Below, in pieces: positions 6,189 to 13,316 of a stretch of 64,000 nt of DNA. A program made the translations under genes and the position numbers. Origin of the DNA: a virus; the IMG/VR virus record IMGVR_UViG_3300049460_000128, positions 1 through 64,000 of that record. One strand, written 5' to 3'. Position 1 is the first letter of the stretch. Every line of letters starts with the position of its first letter. The notes beneath the pieces are model-generated. The model did not search any database. It was given only the letters and a program-made list of their open reading frames with translations, and was not told the origin of the DNA.

Positions 6189-6247
6189 ACAAGTGTCTCC
6201 TGTTATTTTCCACCAATATAGCATGATATGGTATTTAGAAGACAAAT

Positions 6248-6275
6248 AAAAAAGCCCGCCGAAGCGAGCTTTTTT
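6248..6275 (-). terminator. Terminator of the tmRNA operon
   Basis: GCTCGC-TTCG-GCGGGC stem flanked by A and T runs. It works for the leftward tmRNA transcript and could also act rightward. Confidence 0.85.
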
Positions 6276-6660
6276 GAGACTTGGATGATGAGGTATGTCT
6301 CTACCCCCACCGTTTAGGCTGCTACAGCCTGACGGAACGAAGAATCGTTTGCATTTACAACGTGCCGACTTTTATTTTCGTGAATCATCGACTTTCACGT
6401 GTTGTCATCTTCGGCTTATTCACCCTGTCGAAACCAGGTCAGGCCCATCATATAAGATTCTCTCGCTTACGTCTCGCGGGATACTGCGCTTTATCCTGAT
6501 AGTGGCCAGCGAAGTTTATCATGCGCTGCTGGTCTAACCTACCGAAAATCTATATGGTGGACCTGTGGGGAATCGAACCCCAGTCCAGAATGCCTCTACG
6601 TCCAAATCTGTCAGTTGCCTGACCACAACAATGTAATGCGCCTATCAGGCGGGGTAAGCC
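6270..6660 (-). ncRNA. ssrA: Circularly permuted (two-piece) tmRNA
   Basis: The tmRNA halves occur in reversed order on the leftward strand. First comes the acceptor piece: T-arm TGGGG-TTCGATT-CCCCA, acceptor strand CAGGTCC (6565-6559), A73 and an encoded CCA ending at 6555. After a 108-nt linker comes the mature 5' end GGGCCTG (6446-6440), which pairs with CAGGTCC over 7 bp (one G-U), followed by the tmRNA signature CCTGGTTTCGACAGGG. The tag frame GCA AAC GAT ... GCC TAA (6352-6314) encodes ANDSSFRQAVAA. The linker ends pair (ATATAGATT with AATCT-ATAT), as expected of a precursor cut to give two pieces. The upstream limit of the acceptor piece (here 6660) is uncertain. tmRNA with SmpB rescues stalled ribosomes and tags products for proteolysis. 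Confidence 0.9.
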
Positions 6661-6984: not shown

Positions 6985-7890
6985 TTAATTCATATGCGAA
7001 TAATCATCTGCCATATGAGTGCGCAGCTTCTTCAAAGCCGCCACCTCAATCTGACGAACACGTTCGCATGAAATATTGTACTTGTCTGCCATCGCCCGCA
7101 ACGGCACACCAGCCCCTTCATCATTTACCAGGAAACGTTGCTCGATGATATACTGCTCGCGTTCGTTCAACTTTTCCATGTACTTCTGGAGGCCGGTTGT
7201 CTGAAGTTCAACCATACGCATACTGGACAATACGTTGGTGGGTTCCAGCGTGTCGTCACTCAGATAATGGTATACGAAGTCATCCATATCAGCACTGTCA
7301 AGGAACTGATTGGTTGGAGGCACATCGATGGAGCTATCACCGCCACGCATACGCATTTCAACTTCACGCACGTCTTCTGGTCTGACCTCCAACGCATCAG
7401 CGGCCCATTTGATCTGTTCTTCGGTCATGCTGCGCCCTACTTCCAAACGACTACGCAGGTTGAAGAACAGCTTGCGATGAGCTTTGGTAGTGAAGCTTTT
7501 CACTATGCGAGAATTGCGAATCACATAGTCCATCATCTCTGCTTTGATCCAGGGAATCGCATAGGTGGCAAAACGCACATTCTGGGCGGGATCGAAGCGA
7601 TGAATTGCTTTCATCATTCCAATACTTCCTTCTTGAACTAGATCATCTTGGCTCATGCCGTAGAATTTCAATTGACGGGCTTGGCTCATGACCAAACGCA
7701 TATAGCTATGAGCCAGTGCGTCAATTGCCTTTTGATCATTGTTTCTCACTCGTACCCACAGCGCATCTTCTTGCGGCGGGGTAAGCATGGGAAACCGCAT
7801 GGCGGTGCTATGGTAATTGTCAATGCTGCTGAGGTTTACCGTAACACCAAGGTTCAATGGCTTATTAATACCAGTAGCGTCAAGTTTCAT
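6985..7890 (-). CDS. RpoH-like (sigma-32 type) RNA polymerase sigma factor
   Basis: A 301-residue sigma-70-family protein. Region 2 covers about residues 55-130 (DLVQEGSIGMMKAIHRFDP, RFATYAIPWIKAEMMDYVIRN). Residues 138-146, HRKLFFNLR, match the RpoH box diagnostic of heat-shock sigma factors of proteobacteria. Region 4.2 helix-turn-helix is at about 265-291 (ISCERVRQIEVAALKKLR). Length is close to E. coli RpoH (284). It would direct RNA polymerase to heat-shock-type promoters. It is transcribed from its own early promoter (7920-7948), and the RNA operon starts within 25 bp of its stop. It is not a gp55-type late factor, which is much shorter. Capture from a host rpoH is the likely origin. 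Confidence 0.9.
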   Translation of the reverse strand: MKLDATGINKPLNLGVTVNLSSIDNYHSTAMRFPMLTPPQEDALWVRVRNNDQKAIDALAHSYMRLVMSQARQLKFYGMSQDDLVQEGSIGMMKAIHRFDPAQNVRFATYAIPWIKAEMMDYVIRNSRIVKSFTTKAHRKLFFNLRSRLEVGRSMTEEQIKWAADALEVRPEDVREVEMRMRGGDSSIDVPPTNQFLDSADMDDFVYHYLSDDTLEPTNVLSSMRMVELQTTGLQKYMEKLNEREQYIIEQRFLVNDEGAGVPLRAMADKYNISCERVRQIEVAALKKLRTHMADDYSHMN

Positions 7891-12523: not shown

Positions 12524-12552
12524 TAAAAAAGCCCCTAGGCTAGGGGCTTTTT
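12524..12552. terminator. Bidirectional terminator
   Basis: AAAAAAGCCCCTAG...CTAGGGGCTTTTT. It serves the rightward gene at 12092-12520 and the leftward RNA operon ending at 12556. Confidence 0.9.
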
Positions 12553-12555
12553 GTT

Positions 12556-12709
12556 TGGTGGCGAGAGGAGGGGTCGAACCTCCAATGTGCTACACATTGA
12601 CAAATATGCGTGCTCGAGGATCCGGATCCAATTGGCCGCCCTACACTCGTCAACTTAGAACACTCTCCAGCTCATCGGCTGGCGTATCTACCAATTCTAC
12701 TACCCCGCC
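12556..12709 (-). ncRNA. Leu-tRNA-like RNA with extra arm, encoded CCA
   Basis: 5' part is Leu-type: acceptor GGCGGGG, TA, D-stem GTA/TAC with loop GAATTGGTAGA, G26, CCAGC. 3' part: a long variable hairpin AATGTG-TAG-CACATT, T-arm GGAGG-TTCGACC-CCTCC, acceptor TCTCGCC (7 pairs, two G-U), A73, CCA. The anticodon arm closes on a 6-nt loop CGATGA (CCAGC/GCTGG), so no normal anticodon exists. About 60 extra nt follow it, closed by TTGAC/GTCAA. Length 154 nt versus about 87 for tRNA-Leu. Confidence 0.6.
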
Positions 12710-12712
12710 TAA

Positions 12713-13062
12713 AATGTAATGGTGGATGACCGTTGGTGTGCTATTACGCCCAATGCTCAACGGGTCTTGTACGACATCGCGCTTACTCTAATCCCTTTAC
12801 CCTCAGCGCTTACCTAGGGGCCGTTATCCTTCGGCATCCTGTAGTCATGGGCTACGCCCCATAACATGATGACCAATTTCCTGCCAGCTGGGAAATTGTT
12901 GCCATCTTATCGTACAAACTGTACTTGTCCTTCCCCGGTGGATTATGCGCGATGATTGCCACCATCTGAAGCTGGGATCGCTTCCGCCCTTATCCACTTT
13001 GCAACTCTTTAAAGGATGGCTGCTTCTAAGCCCACCTTCCAAAAGTCATCCACCATTACATT
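12713..13062 (-). ncRNA. RNA mimicking the GTPase-associated centre of 23S rRNA
   Basis: Closed by an 18-bp perfect stem (12713-12730 with 13045-13062). Next to it lies the core of 23S helices 42-44 (E. coli about 1051-1108). UUGG/CCAA replaces CCAG/CUGG of H42. H43 carries GGCUUAGAAGCAGCCAUC (13032-13015), identical to E. coli, then UUUAAAGA. H44 carries GCGUAAUAGC (12749-12740) with hexaloop GUAAUA. Pair 1058-1080 changes U-A to G-C and 1056-1082 changes G-U to A-U, so pairing is kept while sequence changes. Some 250 nt of other hairpins (GTGGAT/ATCCAC, AATTTCC/GGAAATT, ATGGG/CCCAT) are inserted in the 5' strand of H44. In ribosomes this domain binds uL11 and contacts EF-G, EF-Tu and RelA. 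A decoy or scaffold role is inference. Confidence 0.8.
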
Positions 13063-13063
13063 C

Positions 13064-13280
13064 ATGTGCTTTGTTGGGCACCATCCGCCACCCCCATCGG
13101 GTCAGCATCCACAGCGGGATTACTAGGGACTCGAACCCTTCTTCGCTTGACTGTACGGGCCAAGCTAGTACGCTATCATGAACCATCTGCATCACTTACC
13201 GCGAATAGGCGATGTTTCCCGTTCATGCTTCCCAAATTAATGGTTTTTCACGTAGACGACTGATGTCCAACAAAGCACAT
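13064..13280 (-). ncRNA. Structured RNA with T-loop, first segment of the rRNA-mimic operon
   Basis: Closed by a perfect 14-bp stem (13064-13077 with 13267-13280). Inside are GCTTG/CAAGC, an AGGG-TTCGAGT-CCCT T-loop hairpin, and the string CTAGTAATC, which also occurs in 16S rRNA near position 1340. It begins at the predicted transcription start and abuts the GTPase-centre mimic. Confidence 0.6.
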
Positions 13281-13287
13281 ACATGAC

Positions 13288-13316
13288 ACTATACTGCTGG
13301 TTCAGCTACCAGTCAA
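13288..13316 (-). promoter_or_regulatory. Sigma-70 promoter of the rRNA-mimic operon
   Basis: TTGACT (13311-13316), 17 bp, TATAGT (13288-13293); start expected near 13281, the first base of the 14-bp stem. Confidence 0.85.

Follow-up and report, generated by a model that had tools for sequence, protein, structure and literature searches.

Several kinds of RNA that imitate ribosomal RNA (rRNA), or that accompany phage transfer RNA (tRNA) genes, have been described. The leaders for ribosomal proteins (r-proteins) L20, eL15, S15 and S4 are rRNA-mimicking cis elements in host r-protein mRNAs (PMC7247131), a source that mentions no leader of GTPase-associated centre (GAC)/L11 type, and uL1 sites are also rRNA mimics in leader RNAs (PMC10931766). 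ROOL and GOLLD are large structured phage and prophage RNAs of unknown function near tRNA islands, according to the part of PMC12286853 drawn on here, and the pseudo-ToxI RNA of phage phiTE, directed against ToxIN, imitates an antitoxin repeat (PMC3475682). The stretch of DNA analysed here (the window) covers positions 1 to 64,000 of virus record IMGVR_UViG_3300049460_000128. Its minus strand carries an RNA that holds helix 42 (H42), helix 43 (H43) and the tip of helix 44 (H44) of the 23S rRNA GAC in rRNA register. GAC-mimic RNAs of this kind form a widespread family, not described before, that occurs in large phages and in some plasmids.

Structure of the GAC-mimic RNA

The element and its parts are as follows, with rRNA positions given in Escherichia coli 23S numbering throughout.

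12713..13062, minus strand: GAC-mimic RNA, whole element (sequence, fold z-score -5.0, large subunit (LSU) rRNA covariance model match inside)
13045..13062, minus strand: closing stem, 5' strand, AAUGUAAUGGUGGAUGAC, perfect 18-bp complement of 12713-12730
12713..12730, minus strand: closing stem, 3' strand, pairs with 13045-13062
13039..13042, minus strand: H42 apical pairs, 5' strand UUGG, equivalent to 1052-1055, pairs with CCAA at 12733-12736
12733..12736, minus strand: H42 apical pairs, 3' strand CCAA, equivalent to 1104-1107 (register 1055-1104 and 1054-1105 from covariation)
13013..13037, minus strand: H43 hairpin, equivalent to 1057-1081, with A1067 in the loop at 13027 (18-nucleotide (nt) identity with E. 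coli 23S; covariation)
13004..13012, minus strand: UUAAAGAGU, equivalent to 1082-1090, with tertiary pair 1082-1086 (covariation), A1088 (partner U1060) and the lower H44 strand
12750..13003, minus strand: extension domain, 254 nt, class A, ending in linker UUGG at 12750-12753 (class A homologs, RNAalifold)
12738..12749, minus strand: H44 tip GCGUAAUAGC, equivalent to 1091-1100, then A1101 and C1102 (1092-1099 switches jointly with 1072)

Enclosed by the perfect 18-bp inverted pair are, in order, UUGG, A-AGGUGGGCUUAGAAGCAGCCAUCCUUUAAAGAGU, 254 nt, GCGUAAUAGCAC and ACCAA, and the strings GGCUUAGAAGCAGCCAUC, UUUAAAGAG and GCGUAAUAGC are present in rRNA order (G1059 at 13035, A1067 at 13027, U1090 at 13004 and G1091 at 12749). 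The first-pass annotation of this DNA had already reported the perfect closing stem (13062-13045 with 12730-12713) and the H43 string and H44 pieces in the right order with a UUGG/CCAA version of H42, and both were found in the sequence as described. The predicted fold has an energy of -131.9 kcal/mol and is better than those of 100/100 shuffles (z -5.0). The 254-nt extension sits between positions 1090 and 1091 and interrupts the 5' strand of H44, where the rRNA consensus GAGU-GCGUAAUAGC is split between U1090 and G1091; the linker that ends it, UUGG in the window, is usually UUUG or UUUA in the family. That annotation had taken about 250 nt of other hairpins to replace the H44 5' strand, which is not the case: two pairs lie below the inserted domain (G1089-C1102, U1090-A1101) and two above (G1091-C1100, C1092-G1099). 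It had also read two-sided changes in H43 pairs as a sign of selection on structure. The selection is borne out by family-wide covariation (see below), but the argument from one sequence falls away, because G1058-C1080 is found normally in many bacterial 23S rRNAs and proves nothing in a single RNA.

The search with the bacterial LSU covariance model (RF02541) that had been proposed for the H42-44 region returned a single match in the whole 296,594-nt virus record, at 13000-13037 on the minus strand (model positions 1098-1144, 21.6 bits, E 1.7e-5). This score does not reach the gathering score of 50 bits. Among 35 other records the model matched 11, ten of them family-carrying phage records in which only positions 1077-1160 were covered and the eleventh a metagenome-assembled bacterial genome with real rRNA.

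Comparison of the window RNA with all of Rfam (cmscan) gave no match to it, only one to the neighbouring tRNA-like element. At the window and 20 carrier loci, only tRNA and tmRNA (transfer-messenger RNA) reached gathering in Rfam 15, with no ROOL, GOLLD or other family. No described phage GAC RNA or viral rRNA mimic was found in the literature (open-licence full texts), which agrees with the initial remark that no phage RNA of this kind was known.

Family members and distribution

Scanning IMG/VR for the H43 half returned 64 stretches, of which only locus L057 was real 23S. An independent scan that used only the 3' half, TTTRGCGTAAYAGCACAC, matched at least 120 stretches of viral DNA, and the H43 half lay upstream in at least 87 of 107 distinct sites among the matches listed. 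Homologs thus keep both halves, the outcome by which the first-pass annotation had proposed to judge its claim. Several of the remaining 20 sites do have the H43 half, with H43 enlarged by an additional hairpin, or are located at the end of a contig. Loci L133, L148, L142, L104, L091 and L075 form a subgroup with an additional hairpin in the H43 3' strand after CAGCCA.

The unique members collected number 169, including those with U1092-A1099 (the U-A type, described below), and belong mostly to large phages. Family statistics are mostly given for a set of 108 members, and covariation was calculated on 94 non-redundant members aligned without gaps. Cultured carriers identified by blastn and reading of loci include Pseudomonas phages pf16, UNO-G1W1, Milchi and Astolliot and Xanthomonas phages XacN1, XaC1 and XbC2. 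Further cultured carriers are Aeromonas phage 4_4572, Acinetobacter phage ME3, Cronobacter phage GAP32, Pectobacterium phage CBB, Serratia phage BF, six Erwinia SNUABM phages, Kaldavass and Vibrio phage 2.275.O; the annotation at most of the cultured-carrier loci is 'none'. Clear members on large plasmids are L245, on plasmid 1 of Aromatoleum EbN1, and L244, on a 909-kb replicon of Pseudomonas sp. FeN3W. Carriage by large phages and plasmids that are not related to each other implies that the RNA is of general benefit.

The 3' half occurred 18 times in a search of 84,980 genomes of bacteria and archaea, against about 15 estimated by chance, and the 5' half was also present at 14 of these 18 occurrences; genuine copies in assemblies are therefore rare. 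True 23S contaminants occur among 'phage' records (L057, L189 and several blastn rows), and L057 and Pd_22F/L189 were excluded from the family as true 23S. Locus L194 (huge phage LR756511) was also excluded, as only a weak 3' half was found.

Covariation and tertiary fold

Mutual information, calculated de novo, ranked highest the pair 1058-1080, the stem closing the extension, the H42 pairs from 1055-1104 to 1047-1112, and 1082-1086; it also recovered 1057-1081 and 1064-1074. The H43 pairs from 1057-1081 to 1064-1074 are canonical in 104-108 of 108 members each, except the naturally open 1060-1078 and 1061-1077, and 1058-1080 covaries in six pair types. In H42, 1054-1105 and 1055-1104 are canonical in 108/108. 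The halves of the closing stem are complementary at 0.87 within a member and at 0.45 when halves are swapped between members.

The contacts 1072/1092/1099, 1082-1086 and 1060-1088 are tertiary contacts of the rRNA domain, established by the L11-RNA crystal structures. The pair 1082-1086 is canonical in 103/108 members (UA 69, CG 21, AU 13), and position 1056 shifts with it (G.UA 50, A.UA 17, A.CG 17, G.AU 11). The partners U1060 and A1088 are invariant in 108/108 members and in all 45 U-A members. Position 1101 is A in 105/108, facing U1090 in 104/108, versus U in sampled rRNA, the real-rRNA comparison being made with 11 distinct sequences. The continuous H44 hairpin 1087-1102 of rRNA is not kept, being interrupted at 1090/1091 by 32-365 nt in the members assembled.

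The base triple provided a prediction. ME3 has U1072 with U1092-A1099 instead of the C1072 with C1092-G1099 seen otherwise, and RNAs with U1092-A1099 should therefore carry U1072. A scan for the U1092-A1099 type with TTTRGTGTAAYAACACAC gave 61 stretches. Positions 1071-1074 were left free in this search, and the covariation tests use free positions. U1072 was present in 44 of 45 U1092-A1099 members and C1072 in 94 of 94 C1092-G1099 members (Fisher 9e-38 for the switch at 1072, on earlier counts of 44/45 against 0/108). The switch also separates close relatives: L193 (Kaldavass) and L278 differ at 2/178 positions of the extension and at 10/52 of the core, all three positions of the triple included, so relatedness alone is no explanation. 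These near-identical extensions beside very different cores suggest that only the core was exchanged or changed rapidly.

The concerted switch at 1072/1092/1099 means that the tertiary fold is under selection, and the claim that the RNA copies the GAC with its structure selected now extends to secondary and tertiary GAC pairs that covary throughout the family. Covariation shows that the core of the family adopts the tertiary structure of the rRNA domain.

Extension domain

Extensions range from 32 to 365 nt across the family. That of the window belongs to class A (GGGGAAGGACAAG...AAGACCC..GAGCA), with homologs in XacN1, L010, L012, ME3, L303, GAP32, BF, CBB, Kaldavass and others. RNAalifold analysis of 12 class A members gave the closing stem, H43, an extension stem and a long helix, with compensatory changes in 25 of 41 pairs. 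Class B has 23 members and ends in CACCCCGGAAACGGUAAGG; the remaining extensions are diverse. Core and extension change at similar rates over 30 close pairs (0.066 and 0.077, respectively). A blastn comparison of extensions with the L057 rRNA operon, a copy that ends before the sarcin-ricin loop, gave no other rRNA pieces above shuffled controls. In a single case, L087, the extension has a sarcin-ricin-loop-like stem (UUGUACGAGAGGAUC) followed by CUGGUGU; this stem, if real, would represent the other GTPase landing site.

Genomic surroundings

Of three structured RNAs encoded on the window minus strand, which likely lie in one transcript, the GAC RNA occupies the middle. The elements are:

13288..13316, minus strand: sigma-70-like promoter TTGACT-17-TATAGT heading the three-RNA array (consensus match only)
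13063..13281, minus strand: second closed-stem RNA with T-arm (GGGUUCGAGUCCC), upstream of the GAC RNA (fold)
12559..12709, minus strand: tRNA-like RNA with an insert of about 90 nt, downstream of the GAC RNA (Rfam tRNA, 31.5 bits)
12525..12552, minus strand: intrinsic terminator hairpin GCCCCUAGCCUAGGGGC with U tract, end of the array (read from sequence; paired in the fold)

The tRNA-like RNA has its insert in the variable region and lacks a U at position 33 in the anticodon loop; it is unlikely to decode. A closed-stem RNA with T-arm is also located downstream of the L004 GAC RNA, and the arrangement in pf16 is similar. Across the family, a tRNA lies within 500 nt in 51/108 members, on the same strand in 51/51, while random placement in the same loci gives 21%.

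Elsewhere on the window minus strand, a two-piece (permuted) tmRNA was identified at 6223-6647 (Rfam tmRNA_permuted, 93.5 bits; beta_tmRNA, 87.6 bits; tag ANDSSFRQAVAA), with a phage sigma-70 factor near it at 6985-7890 (Pfam regions 2 and 4). Carrier L108 also has a tmRNA.

Proposed role of the GAC RNA

A free-standing copy of the GAC may bind host uL11 (or the stalk base) in trans as a decoy or docking platform, with the extension as effector. This is the reading we favour, at a probability of about 0.4. The GAC RNA would most likely be transcribed with the phage tRNA-type genes, to judge by position and strand, and would most likely bind in trans a host protein that recognises the GAC fold, uL11 first. 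Beyond this we can only guess that uL11 drawn off, or the RNA docked to it, could alter factor recruitment during infection, that uL11-dependent RelA activation could alternatively be blunted, and that the extension domain could give a class-specific effect. No neighbouring protein family is common to more than 4 of the 108 members, so the partner is probably a host factor; uL11 is encoded in 0 of the 35 carrier records searched, and any uL11 ligand would therefore be the host's. The tip 1067-1070, where EF-G and thiostrepton act, varies (A1067 in 88/108; in U-A members A 23, G 20, U 2), and the invariant fold core together with this variable tip favours a reader of the fold such as uL11 over a reader of the tip.

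Several points weigh against uL11 as the partner. The invariant positions are assumed to be uL11-binding from what is generally known of L11-RNA structures, the search patterns partly dictate the conservation seen at 1091-1104, and the extension at 1090/1091 might clash with uL11. Because ribosomes already hold most of the cell's uL11, a high copy number would be required of a decoy. A broader proposal has slightly better than even odds: a mobile, free-standing copy of a functional centre of the ribosome would act in trans to capture the host's machinery of translation GTPases, be it uL11, the stalk or the factors, and would carry interchangeable effector domains as insertions.

Capture of the stalk, uL10(bL12), or of the GTPases themselves (EF-G, EF-Tu, IF2, RelA), as a decoy or to recruit them for the phage's own use, is rather unlikely. 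The GAC is the landing site of these factors, and H42 retains its rRNA register, both 1054-1105 and 1055-1104 being canonical in all 108 members, but H42 sequence beyond 1053 is not conserved, and the tip bases 1067-1070, which contact the factors, are variable. A bL12 gene is present in the huge phage LR756511, but the membership of this phage is a weak 3'-motif match only, and bL12 matches are above the cut-off in just 2/35 records. The L087 extension with its sarcin-ricin-like GUACGAGAGGA stem would fit such capture, although it is a single case without an LSU model match.

It is unlikely that the GAC fold is simply a compact scaffold for a non-translation partner, either a phage protein or other RNAs reached through the extension. 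The extensions are diverse (32-365 nt) and could be the working part; however, the carriers have no nearby phage gene in common, and for so many phages to keep the rRNA bases at unpaired positions would be costly unless a reader of rRNA were targeted.

Phage tRNAs counter anticodon nucleases, and the location among tRNA-type genes would suit a bait for an enzyme or toxin of host defence by which the rRNA GAC is modified or cut, as would a core that can change while its extension stays (10/52 against 2/178 in L193 and L278). Such a bait is nevertheless improbable: we know of no bacterial toxin or nuclease that targets the GAC, core and extension rates are alike over the 30 close pairs (0.066, 0.077), and the tip loops, the likeliest site of cleavage, are not the most conserved part.

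Titration of thiopeptide antibiotics (thiostrepton class) is very improbable, as A1095 is kept in 105/108 and A1067 in 88/108 but A1067 is replaced by G in about half of the U-A members, and thiopeptide binding requires uL11 and A1067. True 23S contaminants do occur among 'phage' records, but an rRNA relic or assembly contaminant as the source of the family is refuted by covariation, with covarying pairs kept across a long insert, base triples that swap in concert and members embedded in intact phage genomes.

Comparison with known systems

With the 58-nt GAC domain of 23S rRNA (RF02541) the phage RNA shares the H43 sequence, 1082-1086, U1060-A1088, the 1072/1092/1099 triple and the H42 register. 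It differs in being free-standing, with its own closing stem and with a 32-365-nt extension and UUUR linker at 1090/1091, in having A1101 for U1101, and in scoring below Rfam gathering.

Stable RNAs C and D of phage T4 (rnaC, rnaD) likewise are structured, lie in a phage tRNA cluster and have no known function. Read by eye, rnaC is tRNA-like and ends in a tRNA T-arm, and no GAC half is visible in either. The phiTE pseudo-ToxI RNA is similarly a phage RNA that mimics a host RNA, but what it copies is an antitoxin repeat and not rRNA.

The nearest kinds are the rRNA-mimicking r-protein leaders and ROOL/GOLLD, and the GAC RNA is neither. Like the leaders, it imitates an r-protein binding site outside rRNA; unlike them, it is followed by no r-protein gene and sits among phage tRNA-type genes. 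ROOL and GOLLD resemble it as large structured phage RNAs near tRNA islands, whereas neither has a gathering match at the window or the 20 carrier loci, and the part of PMC12286853 used here describes no rRNA module for them. GAC RNAs offer a compact, defined RNA, and their natural variety provides a library of GAC variants for studies of how uL11, the stalk and RelA recognise this centre. If the proposed role is true, they would represent a new viral route to translation, one that imitates rRNA itself instead of modifying ribosomes or adding tRNAs.
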